Source of the DNA: Anaerolineae bacterium
Lineage (GTDB): Bacteria > Chloroflexota > Anaerolineae > Aggregatilineales > Ch27
Direction: 5' to 3'
Assembly (NCBI GenBank): GCA_013178165.1
Contig: JABLXG010000008.1
Coordinates: 62,001 to 126,000 of the forward strand
Length of the DNA stretch: 64,000 bases
The notes beneath the pieces were generated by a model. It was given only the letters and a program-made list of their open reading frames with translations, was not told the DNA's origin and searched no databases. Numbering within the stretch: the first letter of the stretch is position 1; the number at the start of each line of letters is the position of its first letter. The position numbers and the translations under genes were made by a program. Shown here piece by piece: positions 8,222 to 26,000 of the stretch.

Positions 8222-9466
8222 ATGGTGTTCTTCGATCGCACTATGGACGTTGACGTTGTCGTGGCGGGCGGGGGGACGGCCGGCTGCGCCGCTGCCGTCG
8301 CCGCTGCACGGCGCGGGCATCGCGTCCTGCTGGTGGAGGAAAGTAACAGTCTGGGGGGTGTCTCTACCACTGGCGGGGTTAACGAGTGGTTTGCCTCCCT
8401 GGATGGGCTGGGGGATATCTTTGCCAGGGTGATCCGCGAACTGGACGCTTTTGGGGCACGCTTTGGACGCTTTTATAACCCGGAATATCTCAAGATCATC
8501 TGGCAACTGATGGTTGAGGAGGCTGGCGTCGAGGTGCTGTTTCACGCCAGTGTGATTGACGCCATGGCCGGGGATGGGCGGGTACACCGTGTCCGGCTGG
8601 TGTCGTGCAGCCGGGCGATTGAGGTCACGGCGCGCTATTTCATCGATGCGACTGGCGAGGGCGATCTGGCCGCCCTGGCCGGGGCGCAGTTCATGCTGGG
8701 CGACCCGGCCAGGGGGCATACGCTGCATATGAGCCTGACCTGCCTGCTCCATGATACCGGCCAGCCGGTGATGCCTTACCTGCCGCCCGGTTTGCCCCCC
8801 ATTGACCGGGTCGAGGATCTGCCTGGTCTGCGAACGTACCACCGGCTGCCGGATGGGCGGGTGTATTGCAACATGACCAAGGTGATGGCTTACGATCCTA
8901 CCGATCCTTTTGACCTGAGTGCCGCCGAGCGTGAAGCGCGTCGCCAGCTCATCCGGACCGTGCACTATCTGCAGCGTTTTCACTACCCCACGTACATGCT
9001 CTGCGCGTCTGGGGCCAGGATCGGCATCCGCGAAGGGCGGCGGATTGTCGGCGATTATGTGCTCACTGAGGCCGATATTACCGGCGCAGGGCCTTGCGAT
9101 CAGGCTGATGGCGTGGCGGTGGCCACCTGCCAGATCGATTTCCACAGCCTGACTCAGGCGGGCGACGCCGGACGACGGCAGCGCGTCGAGCCGTACGCGA
9201 TCCCGTTGCGTTGCCTGGTCGCCAGGGGATTCGCCAACCTGTTGATGGCGGGCAAATGTGCCAGTGGCGATCAGGTGGCCCAGAGCAGCTTCCGGATGAC
9301 GCCGACCTGCTGCGCTATGGGGCAGGCGGCAGGGACAGCGGTAGCCCTGGCGCTGGAGGACGCTGCGGACGACATCCGGGCGGTGGACATCGTGCGCCTG
9401 CGCGGGGAACTGACAGCGGCAGGCATGGAGCTTGACCCGACCAGGCACCAGGCGTTTGCACCCTAA
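8222..9466 (+). CDS. FAD-dependent oxidoreductase (FAD_oxidored family)
   Basis: Flavoprotein of unknown substrate, 414 residues. The N-terminal Rossmann motif is VVVAGGGTAGCAAAVAAARR (residues 11-30), followed by VEESNSLGGVSTTGGVNEWF, a hallmark of the PF12831 family. YFIDATGEGDLAALAG and CASGARIGIREGRRIVGDYV also fit that family. ATG at 8222 is preceded by GGGGGAG; an in-frame ATG at 8243 is an alternative. No signal peptide. It is divergent from a LacI regulator and shares its operator region, so it is probably part of the same sugar regulon. Such enzymes often occur in carbohydrate clusters, but the reaction is not established here. Confidence 0.85.
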   Translation: MVFFDRTMDVDVVVAGGGTAGCAAAVAAARRGHRVLLVEESNSLGGVSTTGGVNEWFASLDGLGDIFARVIRELDAFGARFGRFYNPEYLKIIWQLMVEEAGVEVLFHASVIDAMAGDGRVHRVRLVSCSRAIEVTARYFIDATGEGDLAALAGAQFMLGDPARGHTLHMSLTCLLHDTGQPVMPYLPPGLPPIDRVEDLPGLRTYHRLPDGRVYCNMTKVMAYDPTDPFDLSAAEREARRQLIRTVHYLQRFHYPTYMLCASGARIGIREGRRIVGDYVLTEADITGAGPCDQADGVAVATCQIDFHSLTQAGDAGRRQRVEPYAIPLRCLVARGFANLLMAGKCASGDQVAQSSFRMTPTCCAMGQAAGTAVALALEDAADDIRAVDIVRLRGELTAAGMELDPTRHQAFAP

Positions 9467-17213: not shown

Positions 17214-17594
17214 TCACCGGCGGGCGCGCGCCGCCTGGCGGACCTGTTCCAGGTTGACGATTTCGGCAACCTCATACTCGGTTACCAGGGCGTTCGGCAC
17301 GGGCCGCAGGCGCACAATGGCCGGAAAGTGACCCATGCGCCCGTGCAATTCCGCTAGCAGGATCGCCGCGATATAGTTAAGCGAGGGCAGGATAAGCATC
17401 CATGGCTCGCCCTGCCAGCGCTCCGGAGCGATATTGAGATCGTCCAGGAGCCTGATAACCTGGGCGACGAAGGACTCTTCGAGATCGAACTGGACACGCG
17501 CCTCGATGATGGCGCTGGCCGGTTGCCCGACCAGCGCCTCGATTTGTTCGATCTGTCGCGCCGTTAGAGGGTGTGAGAGGTTGAGGAGGTTCAT
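17214..17594 (-). CDS. csx15: CRISPR-associated protein Csx15
   Basis: 126-residue accessory protein of type III CRISPR systems, recognised from MNLLNLSHPLTARQIEQIEA, LPSLNYIAAILLAELHGRMG and the AEIVNLEQVRQAARAR C-terminus, which match my recollection of the Csx15 family. Csx15 is encoded next to CARF proteins, and its proposed role is in cyclic-oligoadenylate binding or turnover; I do not assert an activity for this one. The gene starts 3 bp after the CARF-RelE stop codon, so it is co-translated and is the last gene before a terminator. Length is normal for the family. Confidence 0.85.
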   Translation of the reverse strand: MNLLNLSHPLTARQIEQIEALVGQPASAIIEARVQFDLEESFVAQVIRLLDDLNIAPERWQGEPWMLILPSLNYIAAILLAELHGRMGHFPAIVRLRPVPNALVTEYEVAEIVNLEQVRQAARARR

Positions 17595-17597
17595 GGG

Positions 17598-18782
17598 TTA
17601 GCTTAGATCACCTTCCCAGATCATTACAGGGCCGTAGTCTGCACGACGCAATCCCCTCGATGCTAAACGTTCGTAGGAGTCATCACTGTGACGTGCAATT
17701 TCGGCAATAAGGATGGAGCCGTCATCTTCCTCAAAGTAGAAGATACGCTCATCGCTGGCTGGTTTTGCGATCTTCACCTTGCCGCCGAGCGTTGCATGTT
17801 CCTGCAAGCTACGCCACTCCGGATCACGCATGCGGTTGAGAAGTTTCCGCCATATATCTCTTTGAGTGCTATCAAGAGCGCGAATAGCATCCTGGGCTTG
17901 TTTCGACAGATAGAGCTTGGATTTTTGTTTGTCACGAAAATGCTCGATAACGATGTGCCCTAGACCACTGGGTTCGTAGTAGGTCTCGCCGTTGTCATCA
18001 ATAAAGTCAAAGAGTGACCACAGCGGATGAGTCGCAACGGGTTGGTCTTCGTTGCCCAGTGCTTTTCGGAGCTCAGCTTCGGTGAGGGGTGTCTCGGGAT
18101 TGCTACACTTCACGAGCGCCTCATATGCTGCTTCCATCTGTTCGAAATCAAGGCGGAGGGGCACAGGAGCAAGCCGGATCATTTCAGACGAGGACTCATA
18201 GATATAGCTGAGTTCTACATTCTCAAGCATCCCGATAAGTGTAAGATACGGCACGACGCCTTTGAAGCCACCGGTGGGGTTGATGATCCGTTGATAGGTT
18301 CCCGCGGGTGCTCTACGAAGAATGCTGAAGACTTTGCTAATCAGGTTATTGAGACCCTTACGGCGGAACCTGTCACCATTTTCAACCTGCAAACCTTCAA
18401 TAATCTCGACTTGCGTTTCTCGTTGAAAGTATTCCTTGCAAAAATCAGCCAGGATGCGAGCAGCTAACACGCCGTCGGGAGTTTCAGAAGCAAGGAAGTG
18501 GAGACAATCGTTTCGATTCGGTGGCTGATCCTGGAGTGTGGGGACAAGGTGATTTAGCTCCGCACTGGCCCTTCTGAGCAAAGCTACGTCATTCGCTTTG
18601 GCGCGGAGGCTGGCCATCACAATGCTGTACCACTGCTCACCCGGGAAATTGAGCTTATTACCGGCAATTGCCTTCAGGTCAACATCCCGTTGCCGCCCAA
18701 ACTCTCGCAAGAAGTCGCGGGCCTGCGTATCCGAGTTGGTGATAACGGTTTGACCAACTGTTGAAATGATGCAGTAAGGCAT
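17598..18782 (-). CDS. CARF-RelE ribonuclease (Cami1-like CRISPR effector)
   Basis: 394 residues. N-terminal CARF domain (about 1-190) with the ligand-loop motif NPTGGFKG near residue 168 and the start MPYCIISTVGQTVITNS, which is typical of APE2256-type CARF proteins. A middle helical region follows. The C-terminal 90 residues resemble RelE-fold mRNA interferases (RDIWRKLLNRMRDPEWRSLQ, then RIFYFEEDDGSILIAEIARH). CARF-RelE proteins (Cami1) are known to cut mRNA at the ribosome when the CARF domain binds cyclic oligoadenylate made by Cas10. By inference this is a type III effector. Middle gene of the operon CARF-HTH > CARF-RelE > csx15; 33 bp separate it from the CARF-HTH gene. Catalytic residues of the RelE part are not assigned. 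Confidence 0.82.
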   Translation of the reverse strand: MPYCIISTVGQTVITNSDTQARDFLREFGRQRDVDLKAIAGNKLNFPGEQWYSIVMASLRAKANDVALLRRASAELNHLVPTLQDQPPNRNDCLHFLASETPDGVLAARILADFCKEYFQRETQVEIIEGLQVENGDRFRRKGLNNLISKVFSILRRAPAGTYQRIINPTGGFKGVVPYLTLIGMLENVELSYIYESSSEMIRLAPVPLRLDFEQMEAAYEALVKCSNPETPLTEAELRKALGNEDQPVATHPLWSLFDFIDDNGETYYEPSGLGHIVIEHFRDKQKSKLYLSKQAQDAIRALDSTQRDIWRKLLNRMRDPEWRSLQEHATLGGKVKIAKPASDERIFYFEEDDGSILIAEIARHSDDSYERLASRGLRRADYGPVMIWEGDLS

Positions 18783-18815: not shown

Positions 18816-19631
18816 TCACACCCGCCCGGTCAGGATGTCCAGCAGGACCTGGCGCTTGCGAGTTGCCGTCTCTGCTTCCTCGCAGAGATCGAACATCTTC
18901 TGGTAGATAGCACGCATCTGATTCTCCACCGTGCGCCGATCTTTGCCCAGTATCTGGGCCAGCTGGCCATCGCTGGCGTACGGATGTAGCTCGAACAACT
19001 CGGCCAGTTGCCGTTCGCTGGGGGTCAGGCGGCTCAGCAGCACCTGGCGAGGATCACGACGGCGAGCGATCAGTTCCAGCGGCCTGTCCAGCACAGCGAT
19101 CTCCGCCGCATTCAGGCGCGGCGGCAGCACCGGCAGGTCGACCAGCGTCACCTGATCACGTAGCCCCGGCGGGATGTGGAACCCGCCAGAGCGCAGCATC
19201 TCCTCCGGCGAGAGCACCGTCCACACCCGATCGCGGGGGCCAAAGATCAGCGCCGCAGCCAGTGTGGCGTAGACGCTCATCGCCTTACGCCCGCCAGCAA
19301 CCAGCAGATGGATGGTATACCCCTCGGCCCGATAGTTGCGCAGGGTGATCAGCACATCCTGAAAGTAGGCGTTGGCCGTGTCCTGGCTGGTGATGTCCAG
19401 TAGCGGGCCGCCATCCGCGCCATGGATTTCGTGCCAGTCCACAGCCAGAGCGGGGTAATCGGCGGTGAAGACAGCCGCCAGTCGTTCCCGTGCCTCGGCA
19501 ATGCCGGATAGATGCGGTTCAGTGTGCAGGATGACCACCCTGGCGAAGTGGTAGCGGTCCTTGAGCAAATCCAGCGCGACGGTGATCGCCTCCGGGCGCT
19601 GGCCAAGCGTGGCGACGAACAGATCGGGCAT
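18816..19631 (-). CDS. CARF domain-HTH fusion regulator (NE0113/Csx14-like CARF)
   Basis: 271 residues. Residues 1-180 are a CARF/ring-nuclease-like domain beginning MPDLFVATLGQRPEAITVAL and containing LLVAGGRKAMSVYATLAAAL; GGRKxM is typical of the NE0113-type family. Residues 205-255 form a LuxR/GerE-like helix-turn-helix (LTPSERQLAELFELHPYASD, then GQLAQILGKDRRTVENQMRA). Start chosen at 19631 because AGGAGG (complement of 19642-19647) lies 10 bp upstream; the frame extends to 19694, but that would run through the promoter. A DNA-binding domain fused to a cyclic-oligoadenylate sensor suggests a transcription factor responding to CRISPR signalling. The promoter module just upstream has a palindrome also found before both zinc-ribbon genes. 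Confidence 0.8.
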   Translation of the reverse strand: MPDLFVATLGQRPEAITVALDLLKDRYHFARVVILHTEPHLSGIAEARERLAAVFTADYPALAVDWHEIHGADGGPLLDITSQDTANAYFQDVLITLRNYRAEGYTIHLLVAGGRKAMSVYATLAAALIFGPRDRVWTVLSPEEMLRSGGFHIPPGLRDQVTLVDLPVLPPRLNAAEIAVLDRPLELIARRRDPRQVLLSRLTPSERQLAELFELHPYASDGQLAQILGKDRRTVENQMRAIYQKMFDLCEEAETATRKRQVLLDILTGRV

Positions 19632-19651: not shown

Positions 19652-19710
19652 GGCGAAGTGTTTCCAGCATAGCACAGGCTGCTGGCGGGCGCATGAGTAG
19701 TTGTACTCAT
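19652..19710 (-). promoter_or_regulatory. CARF-HTH regulon promoter module, copy 1
   Basis: Plus-strand order: GGCGAAGTGTTTCC (19652-19665), AGCATA (19666-19671, TATGCT as a minus-strand -10), exactly 21 bp, then the palindrome ATGAGTAGTTGTACTCAT (19693-19710, 7-bp arms around GTTG). The palindrome lies where an activator overlapping the -35 would bind; no good TTGACA is present. Two further copies with identical spacing are at 20507-20565 and 22976-23034. Drives the CARF-HTH > CARF-RelE > csx15 operon. Confidence 0.75.
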
Positions 19711-19759
19711 CTGGCCAATCATGATCGTCATGATTCATGTCGTCGAGGATTTCTCGCAA

Positions 19760-19976: not shown

Positions 19977-20297
19977 GGCAGGGTCTGGAGCCTTACCCCG
20001 GAGCGATGGTTTGCCAACCGACCCTGACGACAGCCATCCCTACCCCTTGGAAATATCCCTGCCGCAGTGCTTACAGACCTTCGCTTCCGCCTTAACCAGT
20101 TCCGCGCAGTAGGGGCAATGTCTTGTTTGACCGACGACAACCCCGCGTCTTTCCAGTTCCTCCTCATTCCTGCCCGAGATCAGGGCGATCAGCAGGCCGA
20201 TGGGGCCGAGCAGGACGCCGAGCAGACAACCCGTCGCAAAAGGGTTGCCCTTGCTCTGGTTGATGTAGCCGGCAATCAGCCCGAACAGCAGCCAGAC
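19977..20297. repeat. 321-bp direct repeat, copy 1
   Basis: Near-identical to 22318-22638 (constant offset 2341 bp). It contains most of zinc-ribbon gene 1 plus about 60 bp after its stop codon. Differences are scattered single bases. Shows a recent segmental duplication within the CRISPR island. Confidence 0.85.
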
Positions 20298-20330
20298 GAC
20301 TATTGCTCCCCCGTCGATGCCTGATTCCAT
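20040..20330 (-). CDS. Small membrane protein with C-terminal zinc ribbon, copy 1
   Basis: 96 residues. Two predicted membrane segments (AIVVWLLFGLIAGYI near 9-23 and GCLLGVLLGPIGLLIALISG near 34-53) followed by a cytoplasmic zinc ribbon CPYCAELVKAEAKVCKHCG (CxxC...CxxC, residues 72-90). The ATG follows GGAGGCAAGT. A paralogue at 22381-22671 is nearly identical from residue 15 on. Both have a copy of the 59-bp promoter module upstream (here at 20507-20565, leaving a leader of about 180 nt). Similar short proteins occur widely in bacteria with no set function; a link to CRISPR signalling is my inference from promoter sharing. The frame stays open for 38 codons after the TAG. Confidence 0.8.
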   Translation of the reverse strand: MESGIDGGAIVVWLLFGLIAGYINQSKGNPFATGCLLGVLLGPIGLLIALISGRNEEELERRGVVVGQTRHCPYCAELVKAEAKVCKHCGRDISKG

Positions 20331-20506: not shown

Positions 20507-20565
20507 GGCAAAGTAGCCTCAGCATACCAGGAACGACCCGTGCATTCATGAGTGGGCGTACTCAT
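20507..20565 (-). promoter_or_regulatory. CARF-HTH regulon promoter module, copy 2
   Basis: GGCAAAGTAGCCTC (20507-20520), AGCATA (20521-20526; TATGCT on the minus strand), 21 bp, palindrome ATGAGTGGGCGTACTCAT (20548-20565, 6-bp arms). Same geometry as copies 1 and 3. Reads toward zinc-ribbon gene 1. Outside this module, 20331-20687 holds no gene I can support. Confidence 0.72.
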
Positions 20566-21370: not shown

Positions 21371-21604
21371 TCTTTCCAGTTCCTCCTCATTCCTGCCCGA
21401 GATCAGGGCGATCAGCAGGCCGATGGACAATCAGCCCGAACAGCAGCCAGATAATGATGGTTGGTTCGCAGACCGGCTGAGCCGCGCGCCAGTCGCCGCT
21501 CGATGCCCCGGGCTGGGTCCGCGTCACGGCGATGATCCGGGGCTTCACCAGGCGGGGGGGGGGCGACATCAGTGCCCCGAAGGGCAATTGAAGGACCGCA
21601 CGTC
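21371..21604. repeat. Decayed copy of zinc-ribbon/array-trailer segment
   Basis: A collapsed version of 22490-23088. It keeps the region around TCCTCATTCCTGCCCGAGAT, then jumps to TCAGCCCGAACAGCAGCCAG, then to the block around CCGGCTGAGCCGCGCGCCAG, then to a run of ten G and one CRISPR repeat. At least three internal deletions relative to the intact copy. Confidence 0.7.
21566..21604 (-). repeat. Orphan degenerate CRISPR repeat
   Basis: ACATCAGTGCCCCGAAGGGC continues as AATTGAAGGACCGCACGTC: one extra base and one change near the 3' end. Its ACATCAG start is identical to the degenerate terminal repeat at 23051, and both follow a run of G and a CGAC. It therefore descends from an array's trailing end. 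Confidence 0.8.
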
Positions 21605-22134: not shown

Positions 22135-22380
22135 TTAGAACAGGCTCAGTTGCACCGGCACTCCCGTCCACAGCGGTTCCGGCTTCCGGGCGAAAACGGG
22201 TTCCGGTTCTTCGGCAAAGACGGGTTCTGGTTCGGGTACAACATCCTCGGTGGCCCGGTCTTCCTCGCCATCCCGGTCGGGCAGGTCGGCGTCCCGGGTG
22301 TCCTCGGTTTCGGCTCCGGCAGGGTCTGGACCCTTACCCCGGAGCGATAGTTTGCCAGCCGACCCTGACGACAGCCATCC
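22135..22380 (-). pseudogene. In-frame acidic tail after the zinc-ribbon TAG stop
   Basis: Directly after the TAG of zinc-ribbon gene 2, the same frame stays open for 81 codons. The second half is clearly protein-like: EEDRATEDVVPEPEPVFAEE, then PEPVFARKPEPLWTGVPVQL and SLF, then TAA. There is no ATG, GTG or TTG that could start it usefully. It may be the tail of an ancestral longer protein, the fossil of another gene fused by recombination, or a product of stop-codon read-through. A terminator follows 12 bp later. Confidence 0.45.
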
Positions 22381-22638
22381 CTACCCCTTGGAAATATCCT
22401 TGCCGCAGTGCTTACAGACCTTTGCTTCCGCCTTAACCAGTTCCGCGCAGTAGGGGCAATGTCTTGTTTGGCCGACGACAACCCCGCGTCTTTCCAGTTC
22501 CTCCTCATTCCTGCCCGAGATCAGGGCGATCAGCAGGCCGATGGGGCCGAGCAGGACGCCGAGCAGACAACCCATCGCAAAAGGGTTGCCCTTGTTGTGG
22601 TTGATGTAGCCGGCAATCAGCCCGAACAGCAACCAGAT
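22318..22638. repeat. 321-bp direct repeat, copy 2
   Basis: Matches 19977-20297 at a constant offset of 2341 bp, with few substitutions. Homology extends past the zinc-ribbon stop codon but ends before the start codons, so the first 10-15 residues and the leaders differ. Confidence 0.85.
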
Positions 22639-22671
22639 GATGATGGTAAGAGGATTAAAAACTGAATCCAT
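22381..22671 (-). CDS. Small membrane protein with C-terminal zinc ribbon, copy 2
   Basis: 96 residues, paralogue of the gene at 20040. N-terminus MDSVFNPLTIIIWLLFGLIA differs from copy 1 and then identity is almost complete; differences are conservative (QSKGNPFATG versus HNKGNPFAMG, CGRDISKG versus CGKDISKG). Two membrane segments plus CPYC...CKHC zinc ribbon. ATG at 22671 preceded by GGAAGGTGATAAAC. A longer in-frame extension exists upstream but lacks protein character. The promoter module copy 3 lies 305 bp upstream, and leftward transcription of the CRISPR array would also reach it. Confidence 0.8.
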   Translation of the reverse strand: MDSVFNPLTIIIWLLFGLIAGYINHNKGNPFAMGCLLGVLLGPIGLLIALISGRNEEELERRGVVVGQTRHCPYCAELVKAEAKVCKHCGKDISKG

Positions 22672-22987: not shown

Positions 22988-23034
22988 TCAGCTTAGCACT
23001 GGCTTTGGGGAGAGGCATGAGTAGGTGTACTCAA
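22976..23034 (-). promoter_or_regulatory. CARF-HTH regulon promoter module, copy 3
   Basis: GGAGAAGTACCCTC (22976-22989), AGCTTA (22990-22995; TAAGCT on the minus strand), 21 bp, palindrome ATGAGTAGGTGTACTCAA (23017-23034; last base breaks the arm). Points away from the array toward zinc-ribbon gene 2, and lies 16 bp from the terminal CRISPR repeat. Confidence 0.7.
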
Positions 23035-23050: not shown

Positions 23051-26000
23051 ACATCAGTGCCCCGAAGGGCAATTGAAGGACGTACGTCCCGCTGCGCCGA
23101 GCGGCGGGAAACGCACTCACCCCTTCAGTTTCAGTGCCCCGAAGGGCAATTGAAGGACGTACGTCTATCTAGCCGACCAGATAGTCAAAGAGATAATGGG
23201 CTAGTTTCAGTGCCCCGAAGGGCAATTGAAGGACGTACGTCCGCGCAGAGTTTGAGGAAGTTGAACATTTGGCAAGGTTTCAGTGCCCCGAAGGGCAATT
23301 GAAGGACGTACGTCGCAGGAGAGAAAGAAATGTCTGTCAGCTTTCTGCTGTGGTTTCAGTGCCCCGAAGGGCAATTGAAGGACGTACGTCATGGAGATCA
23401 TGCCGTATCGTTCAACGTCTCTGGAGTTTCAGTGCCCCGAAGGGCAATTGAAGGACGTACGTCTTTTGGGTCAGGCTCGGCGCGGTCGGACTGGCGGCTG
23501 GGTTTCAGTGCCCCGAAGGGCAATTGAAGGACGTACGTCTCACCATCTCAGGTAGCTCGCTGGTGAGCGCCACCGGGTTTCAGTGCCCCGAAGGGCAATT
23601 GAAGGACGTACGTCCTGCCATCTTTCACCCCCCTGCCTTACAGCTACAGCGGTTTCAGTGCCCCGAAGGGCAATTGAAGGACGTACGTCAATGTCAAGCA
23701 ACAGCTGGCTGATGTAGTGTTTCAGGCGTTTCAGTGCCCCGAAGGGCAATTGAAGGACGTACGTCCGGTATCTACGATCAGGCCGGTTTTGTGGCGGCGG
23801 TGTTTCAGTGCCCCGAAGGGCAATTGAAGGACGTACGTCCACCAGCGCGGGGCGGACTGGTGAAATACCTGAAAAGTTTCAGTGCCCCGAAGGGCAATTG
23901 AAGGACGTACGTCGTGGCGGCACTGGGCGGGAGCGCAGTTGCCGTAGGGTTTCAGTGCCCCGAAGGGCAATTGAAGGACGTACGTCAACGGCAGGGCGAG
24001 GAGCTGGCTACGGTGTTTCTGAGGTTTCAGTGCCCCGAAGGGCAATTGAAGGACGTACGTCACGAGCTACGGCAAGATGCTGATGGCGCTCTATGGGGGT
24101 TTCAGTGCCCCGAAGGGCAATTGAAGGACGTACGTCGGGCTGATCAGCCGCCTGGCTAAAGAGGGTTGGGACAGTTTCAGTGCCCCGAAGGGCAATTGAA
24201 GGACGTACGTCTCAATGGTCTGAGTACGGGGCATCCGGAACAATTTGAGTTTCAGTGCCCCGAAGGGCAATTGAAGGACGTACGTCATAAGCGAATCTAC
24301 AGCCATTGTACTGCTCCTTCGGGTTTCAGTGCCCCGAAGGGCAATTGAAGGACGTACGTCCTGAGTAACTCGGTCGCCAGTGTACCGCGCAGATCGTGGT
24401 TTCAGTGCCCCGAAGGGCAATTGAAGGACGTACGTCGGGGGTACGACAAGTCTTTGCAGGCGCTATTGGCCGTTTCAGTGCCCCGAAGGGCAATTGAAGG
24501 ACGTACGTCCGCTCCCGCCCGAACGATACGCGCTCCTGTGGCCAGTTTCAGTGCCCCGAAGGGCAATTGAAGGACGTACGTCTCTGGGCTTGGAGTATCA
24601 GGTTATTCCCGGCCCCCGGTTTCAGTGCCCCGAAGGGCAATTGAAGGACGTACGTCCGCATCATCATCGTACTGTGCACCATGATGTTCCTGTTTCAGTG
24701 CCCCGAAGGGCAATTGAAGGACGTACGTCAAGAACCGGGCTGAGGCTGAAAGCGCCCTGCAGCGGTTTCAGTGCCCCGAAGGGCAATTGAAGGACGTACG
24801 TCTCTTATGTCCGGTAGAACTAGAGGGTGGCAGTTGACCTAGTTTCAGTGCCCCGAAGGGCAATTGAAGGACGTACGTCTAGCCACACATCGCGCCGCTC
24901 TCCCGGCCAGTTCGAGTTTCAGTGCCCCGAAGGGCAATTGAAGGACGTACGTCGGCTGTATTATCCGGGCGACCGGAATGCTAATAAGGTTTCAGTGCCC
25001 CGAAGGGCAATTGAAGGACGTACGTCTGTAGTGATGAATTAGGAAACTGGGAATTTGCAAGTAGTTTCAGTGCCCCGAAGGGCAATTGAAGGACGTACGT
25101 CCAAAAAAGCGACCGCGTCTTGGCGCGGCCTCGAAAATAGTTTCAGTGCCCCGAAGGGCAATTGAAGGACGTACGTCCTGGCCGGTCTGCGCAGGGCAGA
25201 AGCCGCCGCCCTGGTTTCAGTGCCCCGAAGGGCAATTGAAGGACGTACGTCTCAGGCCGAGATCTTCGCCGGGGAGTGGTGGGTTTCAGGTTTCAGTGCC
25301 CCGAAGGGCAATTGAAGGACGTACGTCCCGCCCTTTACGGCCAGGAAGCCCTGGACGCGCTCACGTTTCAGTGCCCCGAAGGGCAATTGAAGGACGTACG
25401 TCCTTCACGATCGATAGCCACCAGCCGGATGCAAAGGCGTTTCAGTGCCCCGAAGGGCAATTGAAGGACGTACGTCGTGCATTTTATTATCCTTGTCATC
25501 CTTTTCCCCTTCAGTTTCAGTGCCCCGAAGGGCAATTGAAGGACGTACGTCTCGGAGTGCTTCCAGCACTCCAGCCTTGATTTCGTGACGTTTCAGTGCC
25601 CCGAAGGGCAATTGAAGGACGTACGTCTCTGAAAAGGGGACGTCGTTCTCAGCGGAGATGTGGAGTTTCAGTGCCCCGAAGGGCAATTGAAGGACGTACG
25701 TCAGTGCTGAGCGCAATGCCCGGACAAAACTTGTGCCGGTTTCAGTGCCCCGAAGGGCAATTGAAGGACGTACGTCTGCTCTCGGAGCGACCAGTAACGT
25801 GCCCTGTTGTGCCGTTTCAGTGCCCCGAAGGGCAATTGAAGGACGTACGTCCATGCTCACCGCATAGCACCAGGCACCAGTCGCCCGGGTTTCAGTGCCC
25901 CGAAGGGCAATTGAAGGACGTACGTCAGCGGGAAGTGTCGCCCATCGTCTGTAATCAGGTAGGTTTCAGTGCCCCGAAGGGCAATTGAAGGACGTACGTC
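23051..26000 (-). CRISPR. CRISPR array, 40 repeats of 38 bp, 39 spacers
   Basis: Plus-strand repeat: GTTTCAGTGCCCCGAAGGGC followed by AATTGAAGGACGTACGTC. Spacers are 35-39 bp and all differ. I counted 40 repeats at 72-77 bp spacing; all look identical except the first (23051-23088), which starts ACATCAG. Read on the minus strand, the repeat ends CACTGAAAC, the usual 8-nt crRNA handle of type III and some type I systems, and contains the stem GCCC-TTCG-GGGC. The altered repeat is then at the trailing end, so the array is transcribed leftward with the leader at 26001. No cas adaptation or interference genes are in the window. Nearby CARF proteins suggest type III. Confidence 0.97.

Follow-up and report, generated by a model that had tools for sequence, protein, structure and literature searches.

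A CARF protein fused to a LuxR-type helix-turn-helix as a candidate cOA-responsive regulator beside a CRISPR array of an Anaerolineae bacterium

Control of transcription by cOA is still an open question, since in the best-studied case, the archaeal CARF-wHTH protein Csa3a (Sso1445), the binding to DNA is non-specific and the affinity for it is left unchanged by cA4 (PMC8699464). The window analysed here, a stretch of 64,000 nucleotides from the genome of an Anaerolineae bacterium, holds a gene for a CARF protein that seems to carry an HTH of another kind (the CARF-HTH protein). An earlier note had proposed that this protein, due to a GGRK motif, might be a ring nuclease that degrades its own inducer, and therefore a built-in timer for transcription. 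Does it work as such a timer, as a sensor that controls genes, or as neither of them?

Architecture of the CARF-HTH protein

The frame of the gene extends exactly from 18816 to 19631 on the minus strand and encodes 271 aa. A longer alternative frame, reaching 19694, was rejected, and the internal ATG that opens the sequence MPDLF is preferred as the start, because the relatives begin at this position and the ATG is preceded by AGGAGG. Relatives of the protein are found in 123 of the 396 genomes of the class, so this is not a chance frame.

Residues 1-168 (19128-19631, minus strand) constitute the CARF domain. The protein matches the Pfam family PF09623 (Cas_NE0113) with 83.9 bits, well over the gathering cut-off of 23 (E 1.7e-23), and the PADLOC model CARF3 covers its full length (E 2.3e-58). 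By profile, the closest CARF proteins are those of the Crn1/Csx14/NE0113 family, represented by Sso2081 and Sis0455 (E 5.8e-12). In an AlphaFold model of the protein built on 29 sequences (pLDDT 89), residues 1-173 align with Sso2081, Sis0455, and Cad1, the ring nuclease Sso2081 having the closest fold (Z 18.2, rmsd 1.7 over 144 residues), with the ring nuclease Sis0455 and the CARF domain of Cad1 also among the nearest.

The C-terminal part, residues 200-271 (18819-19034, minus strand), corresponds to an HTH of the LuxR/GerE type. No HTH family of Pfam exceeded its cut-off for the window protein alone. When a profile was built from 29 relatives, its C-terminus matched VraR (E 1.7e-8), GerE (1.1e-7), and FixJ (1.2e-7), and Pfam GerE recognises 23 of the 29 with an E of 0.01 or less. 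Residues 190-271, modelled alone with a pLDDT of 92, resemble EL222, StyR, VraR, NarL, and FixJ at Z 9-9.8. The model presents the four-helix GerE fold, and the top structural matches are nearly all of the LuxR/NarL/FixJ type; the Z of the best match (Z 9.8, rmsd 2.3 over 69 residues), taken by itself, is modest for a small helical domain. Weak matches to a ParB-like HTH, obtained from a single-sequence search of the PDB, were set aside, and Rfam yielded no matches in the window. The fusion of a NE0113-type, Crn1-like CARF domain to a LuxR/GerE-type HTH is thus confirmed. The protein shares its output domain with the LuxR/NarL/FixJ response regulators and the LuxR receptors, while the input, a receiver or an acyl-homoserine lactone domain in those proteins, is here a CARF domain.

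Signal binding, signal removal, and the operon

Two motifs bear on the proposed timer. In Sso2081, motif I corresponds to G9-T10-S11 and motif II to G104-R105-K106 (PMC10018336). The GRK of Crn1 proteins mainly serves to bind cA4 and to stabilise intermediates, and the G-T-S of motif I marks the CARF domains that cleave (PMC10018336; PMC8844856). In work on Csa3, similarly, GxS/T is the catalytic motif and motif II the binding one (PMC8844856). The presence of motif I has been put forward as the mark by which CARF domains that cleave can be told from those that do not, Can2 and Card1 being examples that do not have motif I and do not cleave (PMC10018336).

The window protein agrees with Crn1 in only one of the two. 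The GGRK motif is present, in the form GGRKAM (residues 113-118), and its G114-R115-K116 (19284-19292, minus strand) aligns with motif II of Sso2081; over the 30 rows of the alignment, these columns hold G in 30, R in 29, and K in 27. Motif I is G10-Q11-R12 (19596-19604, minus strand) instead of G-T-S. A Ser or Thr at the third position of motif I is found in none of 56 HTH-fused relatives, which exhibit GGQ, GSE, GTE, STE, GQR, and similar variants, and in three of the four HTH-less members of PF09623 compared, with GTS or GES. Therefore, the loss of the cleavage motif appears to accompany the HTH, in a comparison of related sequences that includes only four HTH-less proteins. The NCBIfam models for the ring nuclease (TIGR02584, 26.7 bits against a cut-off of 80.65) and for Csx14 (TIGR03642, 51.3 against 90.35) were not reached by the window protein.

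A regulator that cleaves its own cOA inducer, and in this way times its binding to DNA, is possible in principle, because the archaeal CARF-wHTH protein Sso1393 has ring nuclease activity (PMC8699464). The closeness of the fold to that of the Crn1 ring nuclease Sso2081, the conserved GRK, and the annotation of a Rhodothermus relative as a "CRISPR-associated ring nuclease" point in the same direction. Nevertheless, the GQR of the window protein, the distribution of Ser and Thr at motif I among proteins with and without the HTH, and the low score in the ring nuclease model make this reading rather improbable. The motif I of the Rhodothermus protein itself is GEQ, and its label is probably misleading. 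Neither ring nuclease activity nor the self-degrading timer of the earlier note is supported by these data; its reading of the protein as a likely cOA-responsive regulator does find support, with the fold and motif II suggesting that cOA is bound. Judged by its motifs, the CARF-HTH protein most likely resembles a sensor more than a timer that destroys its own signal.

A better candidate for the timer is encoded in the same operon. CARF-HTH is the first gene, and the second one, which starts 33 nt past its stop, encodes a Cami1-like CARF-RelE effector of 394 aa (17598-18782, minus strand; PADLOC CARF_RelE, E 1.3e-49; Cami1 structures 8phb/8phj, E 5.8e-25). Only 3 nt past it, the third gene (17214-17594, minus strand) encodes Csx15, a protein of 126 aa predicted to be a cA4 ring nuclease or sponge, which matches NF040560 with 152.6 bits against a cut-off of 35 (E 5.4e-45). 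Its closest match in the PDB is CliCsx15 (9teu, E 9.5e-22), which has been demonstrated to be a cA4-specific ring nuclease (PMC13148439), and histidines are kept opposite the H13 and H90 region of that protein. It is due to this likeness and to the retained histidines that Csx15, a separate gene product, is probably the likelier off-switch. In the sister species (L004), where CARF-HTH is 88% identical and the gene order is the same, a Csx1-type CARF gene (L004 4033-5190) occupies the place of CARF-RelE, so the effector has been swapped between the two species while the regulator and Csx15 stay.

Upstream of the operon lies a CRISPR array (23051-26000) of 40 repeats of 38 nt, with the handle ACTGAAAC and a degenerate repeat at 23051; the end of the repeat and the position of the degenerate copy indicate that the minus strand is probably the transcribed one. 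Two models failed to find Cas10 in this assembly. The genes csm3, csm4, and csm5 start at the edge of another contig (C16:1-2978), the assembly lacks the other genes of this operon, and the absence of Cas10 is most likely due to an assembly gap. In the assembly of the sister species, neither Cas10 (with the same number of models) nor RAMP genes were found.

A candidate operator at three promoters

About sixty nt upstream of the CARF-HTH start there is a perfect dyad of 18 bp, ATGAGTA-N4-TACTCAT (site A, 19693-19710, minus strand), followed 21 nt downstream by a -10 box, TATGCT (19666-19671, minus strand), extended by a preceding TGC. The minus strand contains two more dyads of this kind, ATGAGTACGCCCACTCAT (site B, 20548-20565) and TTGAGTACACCTACTCAT (site C, 23017-23034), with TATGCT at 20521-20526 and TAAGCT at 22990-22995, respectively. 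The distance from dyad to hexamer is exactly 21 nt in the three cases, and a TGN precedes each hexamer, as in extended -10 promoters; none of them shows a recognisable -35 box. In the whole 4.19-Mb genome, sites A, B, and C are the only dyads with up to one mismatch, all of them within 3.4 kb and on one strand, when about 0.15 would be expected from base composition alone. A genome-wide search for the composite of dyad, 21 nt, and -10 box returned three perfect matches and no site with a single mismatch. Another perfect dyad, AATCATGA-N3-TCATGATT (19717-19735, minus strand), is located upstream of site A and is imperfect in the sister species.

Sites B and C precede two copies of a zinc-ribbon gene. 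The first copy (20040-20330, minus strand), downstream of site B and with GGAGG before its start, encodes a protein of 96 aa with a hydrophobic N-terminus that matches PF13248 over the cut-off. The second copy (22381-22671, minus strand), downstream of site C, matches the region of the first with 96.8% identity along 309 nt. The sister species holds a copy at the same place, 68% identical. Between the array and the regulator, the zinc-ribbon gene has been duplicated and has partly decayed, with remnants near 21387-21590 and 22146-22508.

Comparison with other genomes extends the pattern to two relatives. The best composite site in the genome of the sister species is the one in front of its CARF-HTH gene, and sites B and C are absent there. 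A CARF-HTH that is 43% identical, from genome G131 (L059), is preceded by TACTCAT-N21-TATATT, that is, by a half-site and a -10 box with the same spacing, a match reached by 14 of 20,000 simulated sets. Upstream regions of more distant relatives contain no outstanding perfect dyads and no motif shared beyond L004 and L059, because the HTH diverges too much. In four further relatives, the composite pattern gave only chance-like sites with two or three mismatches, and the Rhodothermus gene, which directly follows a CRISPR array, has no dyad nearby.

These three promoters represent a candidate regulon of the CARF-HTH protein, to which the binding of the dyads is attributed by their position. Another regulator could own them. 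In that case, the HTH might be a relic used for dimerisation or as a scaffold, in a protein that only binds cOA, and this reading would agree with the doubts raised about a direct link between ligand and transcription for most CARF proteins (PMC4012209). However, it is very improbable, as the LuxR-type features of the HTH are retained in most relatives, and the best dyad in both species, as well as the half-site of L059, stand before the CARF-HTH gene itself.

If the -10 boxes have been correctly assigned, the centre of each dyad falls near -42.5 and the dyad overlaps the -35 region; for the CARF-HTH promoter, the predicted transcription start is near 19659. Sites of class II activators lie at this distance from the start, the lux box among them. 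The same overlap is equally suited to repression, with the apo protein sitting on the dyad until cA4 releases it, and autorepression is common among one-component regulators. Repression by the apo protein is nonetheless considered unlikely, since an extended -10 without a -35 box and a spacing of exactly 21 nt repeated three times look more like dependence on an activator.

The reading that we favour, with somewhat better than even confidence in the full scheme, is that CARF-HTH is a one-component, cOA-responsive transcription regulator of a type III CRISPR system. According to this scheme, foreign RNA would be seen by Cas10, which would make cA4, and the homology suggests that this molecule would be bound across the CARF dimer, by way of motif I and GGRK. 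The pair of LuxR-type HTHs would then alter its grip on the 18-bp dyad. As a result, the own operon of the regulator, consisting of CARF-HTH, the CARF-RelE RNase, and Csx15, together with the two zinc-ribbon genes, would most likely be activated and, less likely, derepressed, so that the effector and Csx15 would rise together and Csx15 would afterwards clear the signal. This removal would depend mainly on Csx15 and not on CARF-HTH, because the latter does not have the GxS/T cleavage motif. The switch itself may not be a simple one in an analogue of Csa3a, considering that the affinity of that protein for DNA is not affected by its ligand.

Linkage to cas10 and relation to known regulators

A match to cas10 was obtained in 100 of the 123 genomes with a CARF-HTH relative and in 85 of the 273 without one (Fisher 4e-21, in a test that ignores phylogeny). 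Fifty-eight places were compared by hand, and in 56 of them cas10 lies no more than 10 kb away on the same contig. In this set, which by its choice selects for linkage and not for strand or order, all 56 pairs have both genes on one strand, and in 55 of them cas10 comes after the regulator gene, mostly at about 2 kb. Within Chloroflexota, such relatives occur often, in most cases immediately before cas10. The typical wider locus consists of CARF-HTH, cas10, csm3, csm4, csm5, then Csx1 or CARF-RelE, and then Csx15, the neighbours of the regulator in this cassette being of the cA4 type. In G087 (L056), a single run of genes comprises a complete cmr operon, which encodes a Cas10 with an intact GGDD, directly after it CARF-HTH, CARF-RelE, and Csx15, and then type I-B cas genes.

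Regulators with a CARF domain and an HTH were already known. In fact, a role in the regulation of transcription was predicted as early as 2014 for NE0113 and Csa3 CARF proteins that carry no effector domain (PMC4012209). Csa3a, which shares with CARF-HTH the CARF sensor, the HTH, and the proximity to CRISPR, binds cA4 and has no ring nuclease activity, and the CAPPa palindrome linked to Csa3, TCCCN8GGGA, is restricted to CRISPR promoters, at four places in the genome (PMC8699464), a distribution that resembles that of the dyads described here. The two differ in that CARF-HTH is bacterial and not archaeal, holds a LuxR/GerE HTH and not a wHTH, and is associated with another palindrome and with sigma-70-type promoters. 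Moreover, motif 1 of Csa3 is absent from CARF-HTH, which scores 15 bits against a cut-off of 60.2 in TIGR01884. Sso1393 and Sis0811 likewise combine a CARF domain of similar fold (Z 13.4-15.1) with an HTH, but they cleave cA4, and CARF-HTH lacks the GxS/T motif. Sso2081, in turn, has the GRK motif in common with CARF-HTH and differs in motif I and in having no HTH. What is new, therefore, is an output domain of the LuxR type, a type III setting in bacteria, a loss of GxS/T that correlates with the HTH, and the set of three promoters. A full-text literature search for a CARF domain together with LuxR retrieved no paper, the Makarova 2020 CARF classification lying outside that comparison.

As a tentative generalisation, which we regard as possible but still short of probable, these proteins could make up a widespread clade of bacterial transcription factors that descend from ring nucleases, have lost the cleavage motif and kept the LuxR-type HTH, exert a cA4-gated positive feedback on type III operons, leave the off-switch to Csx15, and in some cases are still annotated as ring nucleases. 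If this were true, such annotations would have to be corrected, and the output of type III CRISPR systems would include the control of genes besides damage to RNA or DNA. The defined 18-bp candidate operator, the three promoters of the same design, and the existence of a relative in the cultured Rhodothermus marinus make the question directly testable.

The R. marinus relative is borne by the plasmid pRMAR01 (L117 8974-9879), one of only two plasmid records with a match; it has the HTH and a GEQ motif I, and is encoded directly before csm1-csm5. In G131 (L059 3067-6081), no Cas10 or RAMP was found, and the CARF-HTH gene, whose motif II is SGHK, is followed by genes identified by eye as an AAA+ (MoxR/ChlI-like) ATPase and a vWA protein, so that the regulator has possibly been reused outside CRISPR. 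Finally, the CARF-HTH gene of G266 (L061, near 9110-9180) has an apparent frameshift near its start, with GQRPQAVT in the other frame, which appears to be a sequencing error or a sign of decay.
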